From assembly GCF_000197735.1 (NCBI RefSeq), contig NC_014550.1, positions 1,984,001 to 2,048,000 of the forward strand: a DNA stretch of 64,000 nt. The letters are read 5' to 3'. This DNA is from Glutamicibacter arilaitensis Re117 (lineage in GTDB: Bacteria; Actinomycetota; Actinomycetes; Actinomycetales; Micrococcaceae). This document shows, piece after piece, positions 31,311 through 47,641 of the stretch. The notes below the pieces were generated by a model. It was not told the origin of the DNA. It saw nothing but the letters and a program-made list of their open reading frames with translations, and searched no databases. Position 1 is the first letter of the stretch; every line of letters begins with the position of its first letter. A program made the translations under genes and the position numbers.

Positions 31311-31325
31311 TGACAGCCCATCTCG
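31311..31325. repeat. Left 15-bp target duplication of the IS481-like element
   Basis: TGACAGCCCATCTCG here is repeated exactly at 36931-36945. The pair flanks the outer element directly. IS481-family elements are known to make duplications of up to 15 bp. Confidence 0.8.
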
Positions 31326-31339
31326 TGTAATCACTCGGT

Positions 31340-31447
31340 AGTTTGTTTACACACGAACTCACCACATCGCTTACAACCAAACTCAGGACATCGTAGACAC
31401 GCGGCATCAGCACATCGCTGACAACCAAACTCACAACATCGCTGACA
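31340..31447 (+). repeat. Phased 12-bp repeats, left end of the IS481-like element
   Basis: Copies of ACATCGCTGACA lie at 31364 (CTTACA variant), 31388 (GTAGACA variant), 31412 and 31436 (both exact). A degenerate copy AGTTTGTTTACA is at 31340. All starts are exactly 24 bp apart, and the outermost begins 14 bp from the element tip. They are likely transposase-binding sites. Confidence 0.8.
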
Positions 31448-31470
31448 CCGTGCGCAACGAATCTCCTTAG

Positions 31471-32370
31471 CTAGGAAACGGCGACGTCAGACGAATAGTA
31501 GATGTCCTCATACTCGATCCGCTTCTGAGTCCAGGCCGGCTTCGGATCCCTGATCCGGGCTCCATACACCTGCCACAACGGCACCAAACGCGCACTGGAA
31601 TGCAGCCTGACCGGTAACGGAAATGACAGTGATTGCTCACCATCAACAGTGCTGTAAAGCGTATAAGCATCCTTGCTCAAGACCAGCTGGTATTCACCGA
31701 TCAGGTGAGCTGGCACCTTGAAAACACGGCCACGAAAATAGATCTGCGGATTCGTCCGTCGAATCTGGATCACATCATCGCGTTGATCCGTCAGTACGCT
31801 GGGGCTACCGGTGTAGTTTTCAACCTTCGTACGTCCCAACACCTGAAGCCCATCATCCACTACGCCCTCCGGAACCAAATCGGCTTTCACGGCCAGAGCC
31901 TTGTCCAAGTACGACTGGGCTTTGGCCTGTATCCGGGCAATATCGATGGCCACGCCATCCGAACCACGATGATCACCGGCTTCCCACGCTTGAGCAGGCG
32001 TCAGATACGTGTGCCCCACTTTCAGCGCCTGGTGGCGCCGACGGTGGTTATAGTGATTCCGATACTGCTCCAACAACGTGGAAAGCTCCGCCAGGTTATG
32101 TGGTGCATGCGCGTCGAGGAACCGGGTCAACGTATTATGGCTGCGTTCGTTCTTGCCTTGCGTTTGCGGATGACTGAACCGGCCCGTAATCGCTTCGCAG
32201 CCCACGCTAGCCAAGAATATTTCAGTCTGGTTCACCAGGCCCTGCCGAGAAAGATTGAAAGCACCACCATTGTCGCTGAGAAGTTGTTGCGGCACCCCAT
32301 ACTCCGCGAACGCTGCCTTGAGCGTTTCCATCGCATCTTGCGCGTTCTCCATTTGCTCAAAGCACCGCGT
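31471..32370 (-). pseudogene. IS481-like transposase, C-terminal part
   Basis: This 300-codon part carries the second catalytic Asp (VPQQLLSDNGGAF) and the catalytic Glu (HPQTQGKNERSHNTL) of the DDE integrase core. After it comes NHYNHRRRHQALKVG and a long C-terminal extension with a beta-rich domain (IYFRGRVFKVPAHLIGEYQL). Reading upstream, the frame passes …TRCFEQMENAQD and hits the IS21-like insertion at 32370. The missing N-terminus with the HTH and first Asp is at 36247-36799. Confidence 0.88.
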
Positions 32371-32481
32371 GAATATTCGACTCTTTGGGGGCCACTGAAA
32401 TTGTCTTTGGGAGCCATTACCGCAAATCGTGATTATTGTGCTCGGGTGCCACCTATGGCTTCATTGGGGACCACAAAGTAA

Positions 32482-32520
32482 GCTCCTTTCACTATGTGAG
32501 GGCCACATGGTGAAAGGAGC
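32482..32520 (+). promoter_or_regulatory. Hairpin that covers the istA ribosome site
   Basis: Arms GCTCCTTTCAC (32482-32492) and GTGAAAGGAGC (32510-32520). The right arm contains the AAGGAG (32514-32519) that lies 9 bases before the istA ATG. A transcript entering from outside would fold and hide the site, a protection known from other insertion sequences. Confidence 0.65.
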
Positions 32521-32528
32521 CATTTTCA

Positions 32529-34085
32529 ATGGTACGTAAAATCCAGACGAAGCCAATCCTGAGGCTTCGATCCGAAGGATTCTCGCAAAGGTCGATCTCC
32601 ACATCCCAGGGATTCTCCCGTCGTAGCGTTGCTGCCGTCTTCGAAGCAGCAGACCGCGAACAACTTGACTGGGAGGCAGCCCGAGACATCCCTGAGTCCA
32701 CTGTCTACGACAGATTATTCCCAGGCAGAGGAACCCACACCAGCGTCTTCGTCCAACCTGATTGGGCACGTGTGCACCAAGAACTGGCGAAGGTCGGCGT
32801 GACGCTCAAGCTTCTCCACAGCGAATACGTTGACCAGCATTTCCGGCCTGATACGCCCACGATGGGCTACGACCGTTTCTGCAAGACTTACCAACGCTTT
32901 GTGTTGGAGTCTAATGTAGCTTCCCGCGTCGAACACAAAGCGGGGATGAGCGTGGAAGTGGACTGGTCGGGACCGACCATGACACTCACAGATCCGCTGA
33001 CCGGGGCACCTTCCAAGGTGTATTTGTTCGTCGCTTGCTTGCCATTCAGCCGGTACGCATTCGTCGAATCGACCTTGAACATGAACCAGGATTCCTGGCT
33101 CAGAGCGCACGTGAGCATGTTCGAAGCCTTCACGGGCAGCGTCCCGCGGATCGTGCCGGACAACCTGAAAACAGGCGTGACCCGCCATCCAACCGAAGGT
33201 GAGATCGTGCTCAACGATGCCTACCGGCACATGGCGGCGCACTACAGTGCTGCTGTGCTGCCAGGACGGGTACGCAAGCCGAAAGACAAAGCCAGCGTAG
33301 AGAACACCGTTGGACATATCGCTACCTGGGTCATCGCCGGTTTGCGGCATAGCACCTATACCAGCTTGAACGAATTACGCCAGGCAATCCGCGAACGGGT
33401 CCACGCCTACAACGCGCAGCCTTTTCAGAAGCGTGCTGGCTCGCGTACCAGCGTGTTCCGCGAACAAGAGCAGCCTCTGCTGCATCCCTTGCCAGCCGTG
33501 CCATATGTCATCAGCACCTGGGTTTACGGGCGCAAAGTCGCGAAGAACAGCTACGTCTCGTACAAGCGGAACTATTATTCGGTTCCGGTCGCCCATCTCG
33601 GGGCCAGCGTGGACTTGCGCGTCACTGACACGGTGCTGGAAATCTTCAAAGGACATCAGCGGTTGGGTAGCCATGTGTTGCTGTCCGCGCAGAGTGTGAA
33701 CCAGTACCAAACGAATGATTCGGATATCCCAGCAGAACACCGCTTCACTCAATGGGATCCGCAGCGAGTGCGGGAGTGGGCGCAACGGTGTGGAGTGCAG
33801 ACTTTGGAAGTGGTTGACCGGATTTTTGCTGCAGTCCAGGTTCAGGAACAAGGGATCAACCCTGCATTAGCGGTGCTGCGGTTAAGCCGTAAGTACAGTT
33901 CAGACAGGTTGGACGCAGCATGCAGAATCGCTTTGGAAAGTGCTATCAACTCGCCGCGATACGCCCATTTGGAGCCGATCTTGAAGACTGGGCAGGACAA
34001 GAACCTCATTGCTGAAGTCCCTGTTGTTGCGGATTCTGGTGGCTACGTCCGTGGTAGCGCTTACTACGACGGAGGACAGCGATGA
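32529..34085 (+). CDS. istA: IS21 family transposase IstA
   Basis: The 518-aa transposase has an N-terminal helix-turn-helix (RLRSEGFSQRSISTSQGFSRRSV) and a DDE integrase core starting with VEVDWSGPTM. The second Asp follows in VPDNLKTGV and the Glu in KPKDKASVENTVGHI. The C-terminal part (SYVSYKRNYYSVPVAHLG) is the usual Mu-type beta domain. It is full length and looks intact, but its partner istB is split by an IS3-family element. It overlaps istB by 4 bases (ATGA). Confidence 0.94.
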   Translation: MVRKIQTKPILRLRSEGFSQRSISTSQGFSRRSVAAVFEAADREQLDWEAARDIPESTVYDRLFPGRGTHTSVFVQPDWARVHQELAKVGVTLKLLHSEYVDQHFRPDTPTMGYDRFCKTYQRFVLESNVASRVEHKAGMSVEVDWSGPTMTLTDPLTGAPSKVYLFVACLPFSRYAFVESTLNMNQDSWLRAHVSMFEAFTGSVPRIVPDNLKTGVTRHPTEGEIVLNDAYRHMAAHYSAAVLPGRVRKPKDKASVENTVGHIATWVIAGLRHSTYTSLNELRQAIRERVHAYNAQPFQKRAGSRTSVFREQEQPLLHPLPAVPYVISTWVYGRKVAKNSYVSYKRNYYSVPVAHLGASVDLRVTDTVLEIFKGHQRLGSHVLLSAQSVNQYQTNDSDIPAEHRFTQWDPQRVREWAQRCGVQTLEVVDRIFAAVQVQEQGINPALAVLRLSRKYSSDRLDAACRIALESAINSPRYAHLEPILKTGQDKNLIAEVPVVADSGGYVRGSAYYDGGQR

Positions 34086-34330
34086 GCGGTTTGGATCTGG
34101 AGACCAAAAGAAAACTGCGCGAGATGGGTGCGGTTGAATTGCTGCATGCGGTCGAAGCGCAGGACGAGTCATTAAGCATGAGCCTAAGGTTCAATGAGCG
34201 GATGCGGATGGCCGTGGACGAAGCACATTCGGCCTACACCACGGGACGCGTGGGAGGGCTGGTTCGGCGGGCCAAGCTTCGTTACCCCGATGCTGACCTG
34301 CGTACCTTGGATTTCGTCGAAGAGCGTGGC
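34082..34330 (+). pseudogene. istB: istB, 5' part, cut by the IS3-family element
   Basis: The 83 codons (MSGLDLETKRKLREMGAVEL… LDFVEERG) are the N-terminal domain of the IstB ATPase helper. The frame runs into the IS3 end after the Gly codon GGC at 34328-34330, which is also the 3-bp target duplication. The P-loop part is at 35638-36132. Confidence 0.9.
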
Positions 34331-34405
34331 TGGGCTGCTATGGATATTTCGGACAGTGGCACCCCATGAAATGATGGGGTTCACCGAAATGAGGAAGCAC
34401 CACAA

Positions 34406-34702
34406 ATGTCATCAACACGACGCAAGTTCAGCCAGGAATTCAAAGACGAACTCTGCCGCGAAGTCATCGACACAGCCAGACCCATCAAGTCTGTCGCCAC
34501 TGAATACGGCGTCGGCACCGAAACGCTACGCAACTGGCTGAAGAAGTACAAAGAAGCCCACGGCGGCCCTGAGACCGAGCCGGAACTCAACGTTTCCGAA
34601 CGTGCCCGACTCAAGGAACTCGAACGCGAAAACCAAGAGCTGAAGGCCGAAGCAGCGTTCCTAAAAAAAGCGGCCGCATACTTCGCAAGGGAGCCACGGT
34701 AG
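34406..34702 (+). CDS. IS3 family transposase OrfA
   Basis: A 98-aa protein with a helix-turn-helix (RKFSQEFKDELCREV, SVATEYGVGTETLRNWLKKY) and a C-terminal leucine-zipper-like coil (ELERENQELKAEAAFLKKA). The run A7-G at 34663-34670 (A-AAA-AAG) lies near its end. A -1 shift there enters the orfB frame without meeting a stop and gives an OrfAB fusion. Confidence 0.92.
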   Translation: MSSTRRKFSQEFKDELCREVIDTARPIKSVATEYGVGTETLRNWLKKYKEAHGGPETEPELNVSERARLKELERENQELKAEAAFLKKAAAYFAREPR

Positions 34703-35592
34703 TGGCGAAGTATGAATTCATCGACTCCTACGCAGCAGACTCGTCAACTCCGGCGATTGTGAAGATGTGCCGATGGCTGGAGGTCTCCCGGTCCGGGTTC
34801 TACCACTGGCGCTCCCGCCCAGTCTCGGCCACCGCGGCTCGCAGACAGGCTTTGGCGGACCGTGTGAGCCATTTCTTCGAGGAATCAGAAGGAACCTACG
34901 GGTACCGCAGGATCCACGCGGACCTCGCCGCTGAGAACAGCGAGTGCTCACCGGAGCTGGTCCGCCAGATCATGCGCCAAGAGGGCCTGGTGCCGTGTCA
35001 GCCACGACCGTTTAGGACCACTACCGAAGCGGATGCCGAAGCTGCTGCAAGCATGCCTGATCTGGTGAAACGTGACTTCACCGCGAATCGCCCGGGCCTC
35101 AAGTTCGTCGGTGATATTACGTATATTCACACGTGGCAGGGGTTCATCTATCTGGCGACGGTCATCGACTGCTATTCGAAGAAAGTCGTTGGCTGGGCGA
35201 TCGAGGATCACATGCGTGCCGAGCTGGTGGAGAAGGCCCTGCGCAACGCTGCGGATACGAGCAGGATCGAGCCGAACGCGATCAGCCACAGCGACCGCGG
35301 AAGTGTTTATACCTCGGCTTCATACCGGGCTTTGGTTGCCCGGTTGGGGATGCGTTCGTCCATGGGTAAGACCGGGATTTGCTGGGACAATAGCCAGGCA
35401 GAAACTTTTTTCTCGGCGTTGAAGAACGAGCGGGTCTACCGCACGACCTACGCTACGAAGGAACGGGCCCGCAAGGACGTTATCCGCTATATTGAGGGGT
35501 TCTATAACAGTCGTAGGCGTCATTCGGCGCTTGGTTATCGGCGTCCGAATGAAGTCCATTATAGTTATCAGCAGTCGGCTACGGCAGCGTAG
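34702..35592 (+). CDS. IS3 family transposase OrfB
   Basis: A 296-aa catalytic part with the DDE triad: the first Asp in KFVGDITYIHT, the second in ISHSDRGSVYTS, and the Glu in NSQAETFFSALKNE. Before it lies the conserved GTYGYRRIHADL block, and the end is YNSRRRHSALGYRRPNEV. The separate start is a GTG that overlaps the orfA stop by one base (TAGTG). The functional product is probably the frameshifted OrfAB. Confidence 0.94.
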   Translation: MAKYEFIDSYAADSSTPAIVKMCRWLEVSRSGFYHWRSRPVSATAARRQALADRVSHFFEESEGTYGYRRIHADLAAENSECSPELVRQIMRQEGLVPCQPRPFRTTTEADAEAAASMPDLVKRDFTANRPGLKFVGDITYIHTWQGFIYLATVIDCYSKKVVGWAIEDHMRAELVEKALRNAADTSRIEPNAISHSDRGSVYTSASYRALVARLGMRSSMGKTGICWDNSQAETFFSALKNERVYRTTYATKERARKDVIRYIEGFYNSRRRHSALGYRRPNEVHYSYQQSATAA

Positions 35593-35637
35593 AGAAACCA
35601 TTAATCCGCTGTCCGAAAACTCCTAAGCAGCCCAGGC

Positions 35638-36132
35638 CTAGACCAAACCACTTTGGCTTCGTTGGGCAGTTGCGGTTTCATCGCCCAGAACCATAACGTG
35701 GTTTTCCAAGGCTTCACTGGCTCAGGGAAGTCCTATCTGGGATGCGCGTTGGCTAAGCAGGCGTGCCGTCATCAGATTCGTACTTTTTACGTACGGATGC
35801 CGGACTTGGAAGAAGAATGGGTTCAAGTTCAGGACAAGCCGTTGGGCGCTTCGAAATTCTTGAAGAAATATGGGTCGTACACGCTGCTGGTCATTGACGA
35901 GTGGCTGTTGGATCGACCTGATGGCGATTTCCTTCGAATGCTTCTGGAGCTGATGGAACGCCGTTATGGAACATCATCGACGGTGTTCTGCACCCAGTAT
36001 CCGAAGAAGGATTGGCATCAGCGGCTCGGTTCCGGGGTTCATGCAGACGCGATCATGGATCGGATCATTCACAACACGACGTGGTTCGAGACCGGGACGT
36101 ACAACATGCGTGAACAGTTGAGCTCTTCGTAA
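35638..36132 (+). pseudogene. istB: istB, 3' part with the ATPase motifs
   Basis: The frame continues LDQTTLASLGSCGFIAQNHN and contains Walker A QGFTGSGKSY and Walker B TLLVIDEWLL. It ends with the family block FCTQYPKKDWHQRLG and DRIIHNTTW. Joined to 34082-34330 it makes 247 codons plus stop with no frame change. An internal ATG at 35653 exists but would give a truncated ATPase. Confidence 0.9.
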
Positions 36133-36246
36133 CTAGGAATGCTGTTGGGGGCTGGTGGTTCCCTTCCGAGAGATCGCTGGCTCCCAACGGCAATACTTGT
36201 GGTCCCCAAAGGCAATATCTGGTGGTACCCAGACCTACGAATATTC

Positions 36247-36799
36247 ACCGCGTACCCACGTCGAATCGGGAGCCGTCATCAATGAGCTGATAGATCATCG
36301 CCTTGGTCGCGTCCTGGTCGAACAATCGATATTCCAGTCCGTCGATCTGCCACATTTCCATCGGATGCGAACGGGCGAAGCGCAGCCATGATTTACGGGG
36401 GCGTTTGCGCGGGTTTCGCTTGGTAGCTCCGGCCTCGGCAAGGATCCTGCCGATCGTGGCCACCGAGGGGCGTAGCTCACCGAACTCCTGAGTATCAAGG
36501 CTTTCGAACCAGATAGATAAGGGCCCGTTGTCCCACCCGTCCTTGGCCAGTCGCTTGCGGATGCGTAGGACCGTGGTTTTGGTTTGGTCGCTGTAGATGC
36601 GCCGGTCTGTTTTCGGGGCTCTGGAGTGCGGGTTGAGTGCTTTGTTCCCTTCGGCAACGAATCGCTCTTTGACTTTGTAGTAGGAGGGTCTGCTGATTCC
36701 CAGTTCCTTGCAGAACTGCGAGATACTCAAGGAGTCTGGCAGGCCCGGATCGAACTCGATGATTTGGCGGCGTATCGACGCCGATAATGAATTTGACAC
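36247..36799 (-). pseudogene. IS481-like transposase, N-terminal part
   Basis: It begins at a GTG (36799, MSNSLSASIRRQII). It carries the helix-turn-helix (LSISQFCKELGISRPSYYKV), the linker RRIYSDQTKTTVLRIRKRLA, and the first catalytic Asp in MEMWQIDGLEYRLF with IYQLIDDGSRFDVGTR. The frame hits TGA inside the IS21 end. The rest of the gene is at 31471-32370. Confidence 0.88.
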
Positions 36800-36856
36800 G
36801 TTTAATTATCAAATTGATCGCTGACCAGAAGGGGCCTGCCAGCATGTCTTGCTACC

Positions 36857-36916
36857 TGTCAGCGATGTGCTGATACATCCTGTAAGCGATGTTGTGAGTC
36901 AGGGTGTAAGCGATGT
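36857..36916 (-). repeat. Phased 12-bp repeats, right end of the IS481-like element
   Basis: Inverted copies TGTCAGCGATGT (36857) and TGTAAGCGATGT (36881 and 36905), again 24 bp apart. The outermost ends 14 bp from the tip at 36930, mirroring the left end. Confidence 0.8.
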
Positions 36917-36930
36917 TCTGAGAGAGGACA

Positions 36931-36945
36931 TGACAGCCCATCTCG
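36931..36945. repeat. Right 15-bp target duplication of the IS481-like element
   Basis: Exact copy of 31311-31325. The 270 bp after it, up to the MFS gene end, show no gene or RNA that I can recognise. Confidence 0.8.
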
Positions 36946-37219
36946 CAGTCGGTATCACCAGCGTGGCAATGTTGCCGGGGATCACTGCAATCTGCGTCAG
37001 TGCTTAGCCCGTATCCAGACGCTGAACACAAATCGCGCTAACGCGAAAACACTGGTGGTCCTGCAAGACACCAAGCACGCATTATGAAAACTGCTGCCGG
37101 CCCATTTTCTACGCGCGAGCAGTTAACCGGCGGTCTCCCCCACTGATGCTGCATAGCGGTCAATCTTCCATAGGCCCGCTTTGCTAGCATAAATGTCCGC
37201 ATCCGTTGAAGACAACTAG

Positions 37220-44090: not shown

Positions 44091-44828
44091 TTAGGCCGGG
44101 TAGCTACGGGCTCCGAAGATACCTTGGCCAACACGAACCACAGTGGCTCCCTCGGCGATGGCCAGCTCGTAATCGCCACTCATCCCCATGGACAGGTGCT
44201 GGAAGCCCGCAGGAGCATCCTGCTGCAACCGGTCACGAGTTTCGCGCAGCAAGGAGAAGCTGGCACGAACAGCGGCCTGGTCCGTGGTGTTTGCAGCCAT
44301 CGTCATCAGGCCCACCGGCGTCAAGCGATCCAACGGCGCCAGGGAACCGAGCAGGTTGGCAGCGTCGGCCGCTTCAATGCCGGACTTGCTTTCTTCCCCC
44401 GAGGTATTGACCTGGATGAAGACTTCCAGTGTCCTGTCTTCCAATTCCAAACGCCGCTGCAAGGTCTCGGCGAGTTTCAACGAGTCCAAAGCATGGAACT
44501 CGTCGGCGAACTTCGCCACGAACTTCGCCTTATTGGTCTGCAACGGTCCGATAATGGCATAGCGCAGGTGCGGGAACTGCTCGATAAAGTGCTCGTACTT
44601 ATCCTGGGCTTCCTGGACCTTGTTCTCCCCCAGCGTCTCTACGCCGGCAGCAATCGCCAACGCCAGGCGATCGGTGTCAATGGTCTTGGTGACCGGAAGA
44701 AGCCGAACCGAGTGCCGATCGCGGCCGGCCACCTCAGCAGCCGCAGCGATCTTCTGGTTGACCGCAGCCAGATTGCGGGTGAAATCTTCGGTGGTGGCCG
44801 CATGCGCTGCGGCAGGTTGCGAAGTCAA
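44091..44828 (-). CDS. YggS family PLP homeostasis protein, copy 1
   Basis: YggS/PLPBP proteins bind pyridoxal 5'-phosphate and balance vitamin B6 pools, without known catalysis. The 245-aa protein has the PLP lysine in RLLPVTKTI, plus TLGENKVQEAQDKY, GPLQTNKAKFVAKF, FIQVNTSGEESKSGI and LSMGMSGDYELAIAEGATVVRVG. The start is a TTG in this reading. A second copy lies at 46791. The hairpin at 44856 separates it from poxB. Confidence 0.93.
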   Translation of the reverse strand: MTSQPAAAHAATTEDFTRNLAAVNQKIAAAAEVAGRDRHSVRLLPVTKTIDTDRLALAIAAGVETLGENKVQEAQDKYEHFIEQFPHLRYAIIGPLQTNKAKFVAKFADEFHALDSLKLAETLQRRLELEDRTLEVFIQVNTSGEESKSGIEAADAANLLGSLAPLDRLTPVGLMTMAANTTDQAAVRASFSLLRETRDRLQQDAPAGFQHLSMGMSGDYELAIAEGATVVRVGQGIFGARSYPA

Positions 44829-44903: not shown

Positions 44904-46628
44904 CTAGAACATTTGCCGCCAATTGGTTTTCGCCAGATCCAGCAGCTCATCACCGCGCCCGGAGAGCACAGTACGAATGGCATACAGGGCAAAGCCCTTG
45001 GCCTGTTCCATCTTGATTTCAGGCGGCATGGACATCTCCTGCCGGTCAGTGACCACATCCAGCAGTGCCGGCCCGTCGTGCGCCAGGAATTCTTGGACAG
45101 TGGCTTCAAGCTGCGCCGAGTCATCCACGCGGTAGCCCTTGAGCCCCGAAGCCGTCGCTACCGCGCCGAAGTCCGGGTTGTGCAAATCGGTGGCATAGGT
45201 GACGAACCCGGCAGCCTTCATTTCCAGCTCGACGAAGTTCAGCGAGGAGTTGTTGAAGACCACGATCTTGATCGGCAGCTTGTTCTGCGTGGCGGTGAGC
45301 AGTTCACCGAGCATCATCGCCAATCCGCCGTCCCCGGCAAAGGCAATGACCTGCCGCTGCCGGTCGATCGCCTGGGCTCCCAGGGCATGGCATAGTGCGT
45401 TGGCCATCGAACCGTGGTTGAAGGAACCGAGCACCCGGCGCTTGCCTGTCATGGTCAGGTAGCGTGCGGCCCAAATCACCGGCGAGCCGACATCGGCAGT
45501 GAAAATCGCATCCTCGGCGGCGTACTGGTCGATCAGCCGGGCCAGGTACTGCGGGTGGATGGCTGCCCCGGGCTTGGAAGGCGTAGCCAGTTCATCGAGC
45601 TTGGTGCGCGTCTTGCGGTAGTGCTCCACCGCGGTCTCCAGGTGCTTGCGCCGGGTCTGCACCGGCAGCAAGGCGGTCAGCGCCGCGGCCGTGTCCTTCA
45701 CGGTGCCCACCAGCGGAATATCCACCCGGGTGCGCTTGCCGATCTGCTCCCCGCGGATATCCACCTGGATGATGGTGGCGTCTTGCGGGTAGAACTGCTG
45801 GTACGGGAAGTCGGTGCCCAGCATCAGCAGCACATCGCACTCGGCGATCGCCTTGGCGCCGGAAGCGAAGCCCAGCAGCCCGGTCATGCCAACATCGAAG
45901 GGGTTGTCGTATTCGATGTGCTCCTTGCCGCGCATCGCGTGCACGATCGGTGCGCCGAGCTTGTCGGCCAGCGCAATCACCTCATCGTGGGCCCCGGCGA
46001 CCCCGGCACCTGCCAGGATGGTGATCTTGCGCGATCCTTCCAGGATTTCGGCGGTGCGCTCAAGCTCTTCTTCATTAGGCAGCACGCGCGGGTTGGTTTT
46101 GGTGATCTTCTGCGTCGGCGTGCGTTCCATCTCGGCCAGGGCCACATCCCCGGAAATCACCAGCACGGCCACCCCGCGCTTCTCGATGGCCTCGCGCATC
46201 GCAATGCGCAGCATCCGCGGCATCTGCTTGGGATCGGAGACCTGTTCGGCATAGACCGAGCAGCCACGGAAGACTTCCACCGGGTGGGTCTCCTGGAAGT
46301 AGTTGGAGCCGATCTCCTCGGTAGGGATATGCGCGGCGATGGCCAGCACCGGAACGCGCGAACGGTTCGCATCGTACAGGCCGTTGATCAGATGCAGGTT
46401 GCCCGGGCCGCAGGAACCCACGCAGACGGTCAGCTCCCCGGTAATTTCAGCTTCGGCGGCCGCCGCAAACGCAGCGGCTTCCTCGTGGCGGTGGTGGACC
46501 CATTCGATCCGCCCGTTCTCCCGCAAGGAATCGGTCAAGCCGTTCAGCGAGTCCCCCGGGATGCCGTAGATTCGGCGCACTCCCTGGGTATCGAGCTGTT
46601 CAATCAGGTGGTCGGCTACGGTAGGCAA
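44904..46628 (-). CDS. poxB: Pyruvate dehydrogenase (quinone) / pyruvate oxidase PoxB
   Basis: PoxB is a ThDP- and FAD-dependent peripheral membrane enzyme that oxidises pyruvate to acetate and CO2 with quinone as acceptor. The start is uncertain: AGGAGG stands 6 bases before a TTG at 46628 (PTVADHLIEQL, 574 aa). A GTG at 46646 would place the Shine-Dalgarno site inside the gene. Visible are YGIPGDSLNGL, HRHEEAAAFAAAAEAEITG with the ThDP Glu, SCGPGNLHLINGLYDA, ILAGAGVAGAHDEV in the FAD domain, and GDGGLAMMLGELLTA…VFNN, the ThDP motif. Confidence 0.94.
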   Translation of the reverse strand: MPTVADHLIEQLDTQGVRRIYGIPGDSLNGLTDSLRENGRIEWVHHRHEEAAAFAAAAEAEITGELTVCVGSCGPGNLHLINGLYDANRSRVPVLAIAAHIPTEEIGSNYFQETHPVEVFRGCSVYAEQVSDPKQMPRMLRIAMREAIEKRGVAVLVISGDVALAEMERTPTQKITKTNPRVLPNEEELERTAEILEGSRKITILAGAGVAGAHDEVIALADKLGAPIVHAMRGKEHIEYDNPFDVGMTGLLGFASGAKAIAECDVLLMLGTDFPYQQFYPQDATIIQVDIRGEQIGKRTRVDIPLVGTVKDTAAALTALLPVQTRRKHLETAVEHYRKTRTKLDELATPSKPGAAIHPQYLARLIDQYAAEDAIFTADVGSPVIWAARYLTMTGKRRVLGSFNHGSMANALCHALGAQAIDRQRQVIAFAGDGGLAMMLGELLTATQNKLPIKIVVFNNSSLNFVELEMKAAGFVTYATDLHNPDFGAVATASGLKGYRVDDSAQLEATVQEFLAHDGPALLDVVTDRQEMSMPPEIKMEQAKGFALYAIRTVLSGRGDELLDLAKTNWRQMF

Positions 46629-46721
46629 AACATTCCTCCTGCACACAATATTCCAGTGGGTCTACTGTTCACCCTACTGCGTCATTCCCCCATGTGCCAT
46701 GCATTTTTGACACTTCGCAGG

Positions 46722-46790: not shown

Positions 46791-47552
46791 CTACGTGGCG
46801 AACCCCGGCCAGTAGTGCGAATCGGGCAGGGCCCGCGCCCCGAAAATCCCCTGGCCCACACGCACCACGGTTGCCCCTTCGGCAATGGCCAGCTCGAAGT
46901 CACCGCTCATCCCCATGGACAGTTCTTCCACGTTGCCCAGGTCCAGTTCGCGCAGCTCTTGGCGCACGGCAACCAGCTTCCGGAAGCACGCGCGCACCAG
47001 TTCCTGCTCGGGAGAAAATACCGCCAGGGTCATCAGCCCTTTGACCTGCAGCCGTTCGAAGACCTGCAGCTGCTTGAGGAATCCAGCCGCCTGCGCCGGT
47101 TGGATCCCGAACTTGGATTCTTCACCGGAGGTGTTGACCTGGATGAAGACCGGCAAGATCCGGTCCTCGACCTCCAGCCGGCGCTCCAAAGCCTGGGCCT
47201 GGCGCAGATTATCCAGCGCCTGGAACTCATCGGCGAAGCGGGCCACATACTTGGCCTTATTGGTCTGCAAGTGCCCGATCACCGAGTACTTCAGCTGCGG
47301 CACATCCGCCAGCTGCTGGGATTTCTCCCACGCTTCTTGCACCTTGTTCTCACCCAGCCAGCTGACCCCGGCCTCAATGGCCAGGCGCAACCGCTGCGCC
47401 GGAACAGTCTTGGTCACCGGCAGCAGCCGTACGCTGCCAGCCCGCCGGCCAGCAGCAGTTTCAGCCGCGGCGATCCGCGCCCGGACAGAGGCGAGGTTGG
47501 CCGCGAAATCGGCCCGGGTCCGCGCATGCGCTGCGGCTGGATTCTGGTTCAT
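46791..47552 (-). CDS. YggS family PLP homeostasis protein, copy 2
   Basis: From the ATG at 47552 (GGAG 5 bases upstream) this is 253 aa. It has the same blocks as copy 1: RLLPVTKTV with the PLP Lys, WLGENKVQEAWEKS, GHLQTNKAKYVARF, FIQVNTSGEESKFGI and LSMGMSGDFELAIAEGATVVRVG. By eye roughly half of the positions are identical to copy 1, so the duplication is old or one copy was acquired. In most bacteria there is a single yggS, usually near ftsZ/sepF. Confidence 0.93.
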   Translation of the reverse strand: MNQNPAAAHARTRADFAANLASVRARIAAAETAAGRRAGSVRLLPVTKTVPAQRLRLAIEAGVSWLGENKVQEAWEKSQQLADVPQLKYSVIGHLQTNKAKYVARFADEFQALDNLRQAQALERRLEVEDRILPVFIQVNTSGEESKFGIQPAQAAGFLKQLQVFERLQVKGLMTLAVFSPEQELVRACFRKLVAVRQELRELDLGNVEELSMGMSGDFELAIAEGATVVRVGQGIFGARALPDSHYWPGFAT

Positions 47553-47641
47553 CAGCACTCCTTCATCGATCCCATCCTAGGCACGAACCTGCGCGCATTG
47601 GATAGGCTGGAAGCTGCAGCACCAAAGACCAAGGAGTAACA

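Follow-up and report, generated by a model that had tools for sequence, protein, structure and literature searches.

Positions 31,311 to 36,945 of the analysed window hold three insertion sequences (ISs) stacked one inside another: an IS481-family element holds an IS21-family element, whose istB gene in turn holds an IS3-family element. With near certainty, the best explanation of this stretch is that ordinary DDE insertion sequences arrived here independently, in three events. The insertions and their order are evident from the nesting itself and from copies of the elements that lack the inserts. As such the nest is ordinary, this very genome having earlier been reported to contain nests of this kind; the sole part that may be new is a possible target motif of the outer element, offset from its duplicated target.

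The window is the whole stretch of DNA that was analysed, 64,000 nucleotides at C3:1984001-2048000; the genome (G000) comprises 3 contigs that total 3,918,192 bases. The strain was described as Arthrobacter arilaitensis Re117, a species now placed in the genus Glutamicibacter. According to its genome paper (PMC2991359), it is a cheese-surface bacterium with a chromosome of 3,859,257 bases and one plasmid of 50,407 bases. Further along the window lie two genes of the YggS family (PLP-dependent), at 44091-44828 and 46791-47558, with stretches that are 72-82% identical, and between them a gene of the pyruvate-dehydrogenase (quinone) type (44904-46646). The parts of the nest are listed below by window position; G001 is the genome that matches Glutamicibacter ardleyensis.

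31326..36930, minus (transposase strand): outer IS481-family element with TGT...ACA ends, 5605 bp with its inserts and 1722 bp unbroken
31311..31325, no strand: left copy of the 15-bp target duplication, identical to 36931-36945
36931..36945, no strand: right copy of the 15-bp target duplication, identical to 31311-31325
36248..36799, minus: 5' part of the outer transposase gene; NF033577 (IS481) 119.9 bits, below the whole-protein cut-off of 224
31471..32369, minus: 3' part of the outer transposase gene; NF033577 109.2 bits for 31471-32352, below the cut-off of 224
32370..36247, plus: IS21-family element, TGAATATTCG...CGAATATTCA, 3878 bp, or 2571 bp without the IS3 element and one GGC; IstA and IstB profiles
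32365..32369, no strand: CCGCG, left copy of the 5-bp duplication (preferred reading), a junction repeat
36248..36252, no strand: CCGCG, right copy, a junction repeat
32529..34085, plus: istA, 518 codons, intact; NF033546 (IS21 transposase) 240.3 bits, cut-off 160
34082..34330, plus: istB, 5' part; shares 81 of 83 residues with the unbroken IstB of G001 and by itself matches no profile
35638..36132, plus: istB, 3' part; shares 158 of 165 positions, the stop included, with the IstB of G001; PF01695 107.4 bits, cut-off 24.1, at 35653-36132
34331..35634, plus: IS3-family element, 1304 bp; two more identical copies, with duplications GTC and CAC
34328..34330, no strand: GGC, left copy of the IS3 duplication; a single GGC in G001
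35635..35637, no strand: GGC, right copy of the IS3 duplication, a junction repeat
34406..34702, plus: IS3 orfA, 98 codons; PF01527 58.8 bits, cut-off 24.1
34702..35592, plus: IS3 orfB, 296 codons; NF033516 (IS3 transposase) 312.4 bits, cut-off 160
34663..34669, plus: A AAA AAA, by its sequence a probable site of -1 frameshifting, in frame with orfA; from this point the -1 frame stays open until orfB ends
36952..36956, plus: GTATC, possible target motif of the outer element at +7 to +11, in the same register at other insertion sites

The outermost level is bounded by the 15-bp repeat TGACAGCCCATCTCG at 31311-31325 and 36931-36945. The exact duplication claimed for this level in the first-pass annotation was borne out: of the 58,365 pairs of positions in the window that are this far apart, only the nest's own shows identical 15-mers. 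The same genome carries five uninterrupted copies of the element, each of 1722 bp (L005, L007-L010). The two outer pieces of the window copy (1045 and 684 bases), which overlap only by the repeat, show no difference from L005, and the other four unbroken copies differ from it at 1, 1, 1 and 6 positions. When the intervening DNA is removed, the two parts of the transposase gene (546 and 900 bases) join into the 481 codons plus stop that had been predicted, which is the length of the unbroken gene at L005:1646-3091; the protein of this unbroken gene reaches 243 bits against NF033577, above the IS481 cut-off of 224. A 15-bp duplication flanks all seven near-full copies in the genome (the window copy, L005, L007-L010 and L160), exact at six of them and with one mismatch at L008, and a remnant of the element of about 220 bases lies at C3:1661182. 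The copy L160 (G000:C3:2577522-2582100) is itself split, at about 1078-2676, by a 1599-base insert with the 3-bp repeat TGG. This insert holds a long frame that by eye resembles a DDE transposase; its outermost ends are not inverted repeats, and TGAGACC/GGTCTCA lies about 20 bp inside them.

Matches to the outer element were found in two of the 18 genomes of the genus (Re117 and G008) and in 18 of 345 genomes of the family, with only two candidates scored per genome. Three relatives, L199 and L216 from one genome of the family and L166 from an Arthrobacter plasmid, are about 70% identical to it, measure 1715-1718 bp and have exact 15-bp duplications; among the five relatives scanned, no direct duplication was found at L198 and L200. 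The nearest relative, L198 (G008:C1:457405-459102), is flanked by 15-bp repeats in inverted rather than direct orientation (14/15), the arrangement that an intramolecular event, or inversion between two copies, would leave. Within the window copy, several 24-bp repeats around ACATCGCTnACA at 31326-31452 and 36855-36922, inverted between the outer ends, are probable transposase-binding sites.

The middle element splits the outer transposase gene, as the first-pass annotation had stated, and this part of its reading stands; the 7-bp ACCGCGT duplication given there gives way to a better reading. The direct repeat at the junctions is 8 bp long (CACCGCGT, 32363-32370 and 36246-36253), and since these letters would equally arise from a 5-bp duplication next to the terminal T and A of TG...CA ends, lengths of 5, 7 and 8 bp look alike from this site alone. 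The best reading is a 5-bp duplication, CCGCG, with TG...CA ends, which would place the element at 32370-36247; it is preferred because relatives, with three exceptions, speak for TG...CA ends and 4-6 bp, the ground on which 7 bp was ranked below it, and because an IS21 member is reported to have produced 5-bp duplications on insertion in vitro (PMC10122671). The comparison of ends comprised 36 entries, namely 34 of 77 loci, taken from the longer ones by no fixed rule, and the relative in the element's own genome, entered twice (L165, L014). Six of the 36 (L032, L041, L042, L064, L072, L091) have TGA(A/G)TATT ends and 4-6 bp duplications. In three (L030, L033, L075), whose duplications are 4-5 bp, complementarity extends one base pair beyond TG...CA; this goes against a strict TG...CA rule. 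The end pairs at L069 and L090 look spurious. The own-genome relative reads by eye as TGAATATT...AATATTCA with TGAA, where the automated scan chose an inner pair, and the remaining 23 entries gave no end pair at the threshold used.

The IS21-family element is single-copy in the genome, with one relative of 65-69% identity at C3:3846162. Some match was present in six of the 18 genomes of the genus, the sole close one besides its own being that in G001, which is 94.8-95.8% identical over three segments. There, istB is unbroken at 247 codons, and just one GGC stands at the place that the IS3 element occupies in the window. The two parts of istB in the nest (249 and 495 bases) likewise add up to 247 codons plus stop, as the first-pass annotation had them. 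As for the IstB helper ATPase expected of the family, the 3' piece passes the PF01695 cut-off; against NCBIfam NF038214 (cut-off 200), it scores 141.3 bits and the unbroken protein of G001 161.6 bits. The G001 copy is without its left end and its istA is broken by another insert of about 1.7 kb, so that every close copy of the middle element that was found has a break somewhere. This copy (L161, G001:C4:1-6500) sits within a pile of mobile elements, with a stretch to its left that by eye is long and integrase-like. A contig of Glutamicibacter ardleyensis has a near copy of IstA (96% over residues 93-456).

The innermost insertion, an IS3-family element at 34331-35634 splitting istB with a 3-bp GGC duplication, was confirmed as first described: the repeats are exact, G001 has the single GGC, and the element has two sister copies. 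The further copies lie on the chromosome (GTC) and on the 50-kb contig (CAC), and all three full copies thus have 3-bp duplications and the ends TGGGCTGCT...AGCAGCCCA. The identical copy on the 50,407-base plasmid contig (L003, G000:C2:16492-17795) indicates that the element was shared between chromosome and plasmid. Among the 18 genomes of the genus, those other than its own gave nothing beyond short partial matches to it. Both of its frames are whole, orfB following orfA in -1 register, and -1 frameshifting at A AAA AAA probably links the two. It is the sole one of the three elements to retain all of its parts; the earlier statement that only the IS3 element is complete therefore stands for whole elements and needs qualifying for genes, istA (518 codons) being intact too.

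Each inner element breaks a gene of the element that encloses it, and the broken gene is known unbroken elsewhere: the outer element occurs without the IS21-family element in five copies of the same genome, and istB occurs without the IS3 element in G001. The order of arrival is thus IS481-like, then IS21-like, then IS3, and the copies without an inner element support both this order and the three families as originally proposed. The genome's other copies and G001 also agree with the reconstructed ends and genes. The history began with the entry of the IS481-family element between two genes, one of which, judged from its sequence, is a cold-shock-protein gene and the other of which is transporter-like only (NCBIfam matches under cut-off), with duplication of 15 bp. 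The IS21-family element then entered the outer transposase gene, duplicating 5 bp on the best reading, and the IS3-family element entered istB last, duplicating 3 bp. By these insertions, the IS481-family and IS21-family elements of the nest are disarmed in cis. The outer copy could presumably still be moved in trans by the five unbroken outer copies, and the IS3 element, which keeps both frames and both ends, is presumably active.

Comparison with nine related loci (G011, G007, L133-L139) yielded no exact empty site for the outermost insertion in a sister species. On the cold-shock side these loci are conserved (88-100%), by eye through a hairpin and T-run behind that gene, and homology is lost 21-26 bp before the outer element. 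With no bare site seen, the evidence for the outermost insertion is the 15-bp repeat together with the sister copies.

The nest might instead be a composite that moves as a unit, with the inner elements as cargo between the outer ends. In favour of this, neither outer end is damaged, the genome has unbroken transposase genes, and PMC2991359 reports two further IS couples of Re117 as identical nests at two places. However, the IS21-family element, and hence the block, occurs once in the genome; movement of the whole block as one unit had been named at the outset as the case that would tell against stepwise arrival, and no second copy of it is present. Moreover, in collections that may omit this genome's records, the junction patterns had no match in viral contigs and none of 82 matching plasmid records covers 80% of the block, and movement as a unit is accordingly very improbable. 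Carriage of the block by a phage or a plasmid was considered and rejected: two junction patterns and the outer left end have no match in viral contigs, 32371-36246 is without a match in phages, and the 82 plasmid records hold just pieces of 60-90% identity.

It is scarcely credible, in turn, that the nest is an artefact in which repeats were wrongly joined during assembly. The outer and IS3 elements are repeats of 1.3-1.7 kb, and repeats of this length are a common source of misjoins. Against this, the IS21-family element is single-copy, each level has a separate, exact direct repeat at its borders, and the chromosome is one contig of the length published in PMC2991359, a paper that also states that gene fragments were checked for sequencing or assembly errors.

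The possible target motif of the outer element appears when the right flanks of the seven genome sites are aligned in element orientation, where, counted outward from the duplication, GTA(C/T)(C/T) occupies +7 to +11. Six of the seven flanks have G at +7, six have T at +8, and all seven have A at +9 and pyrimidines at +10 and +11. The best stretches of 4, 5 and 6 columns were equalled by none of 3000 random sets of seven drawn from window stretches outside the nest, each set being scored at its own best place. Among four relative sites checked later, L198 of G008 fits, in a register that presumes the same 15 bp (an inverted repeat there), L199 agrees from +8 to +11, and neither L216 nor L166 fits. 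Overall, xTA(C/T)(C/T) occurs at +7 to +11 in eight of 11 sites versus 0.7% of background positions, and GTA(C/T)(C/T) in six of 11 versus 0.22%; among the flanks inspected for it are the window flank (36946-36965) and those of L005, L007-L010, L160, L198 and L199. On balance, these flanks favour the view that the outer element picks its targets by xTA(C/T)(C/T), with GGTAC as the best form, outside the duplicated 15 bp and on the right-end side only, and this placement suggests target recognition outside the duplicated stretch. If this is true, the element would recognise its target at a physical distance from where it cuts, a possible reason for the long duplications of this IS481 branch. 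A dispersed repeat as the outer target was also considered and rejected; some right flanks are alike over about 20 bp, and only the short motif is kept. With up to three mismatches, GGTACCNNNNNNGCACTATTC has one match in the window versus 0.86 expected; in the genome it has 93 matches versus 35 for the reversed control, the best with two mismatches, and these form no clear repeat family. A limited search of the literature on IS481 targets did not find the offset motif, which is weak evidence of its absence there; the motif can be looked for at IS481 members whose duplications are likewise near 15 bp.

In a genome whose IS expansion was known before, the nest shows with clarity how the stratigraphy of ISs can be read, and it is usable as a test case for IS annotation. 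The outer element resembles other IS481 members in its DDE transposase, which when unbroken exceeds the NCBIfam cut-off, in its TGT...ACA ends and in a duplication within the range of 2-15 bp that PMC10045372, a paper on eukaryotic relatives, gives for the family. Most members duplicate 6 bp according to that source, and the 15 bp duplicated here differ from these; they represent the known upper end for IS481 and are not new. The middle element has the istA/istB overlap of 4 bp, the TGAATATT...AATATTCA type of ends, TG...CA, a short duplication and an IstA transposase in common with the IS21 family, and departs from it in that its istB is broken by the IS3 element. The inner element has the orfA/orfB -1 register, A7 slip site, TG...CA ends and 3-bp duplications of the IS3 family, from which no difference was seen. 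The arrangement as a whole also has precedents in the same genome: the 2010 Re117 paper reports 'russian doll' ISs inserted one within another (PMC2991359). The couples named there, ISAar16 in ISAar15 and ISAar18 in ISAar17, occur twice each, as identical nests at two places, and seem to have moved together. The present nest is unnamed in the IS section of that paper; it shares with the 'russian doll' ISs both the genome and the placing of ISs within ISs, and is distinguished from the two named couples by having three levels and by being found once.
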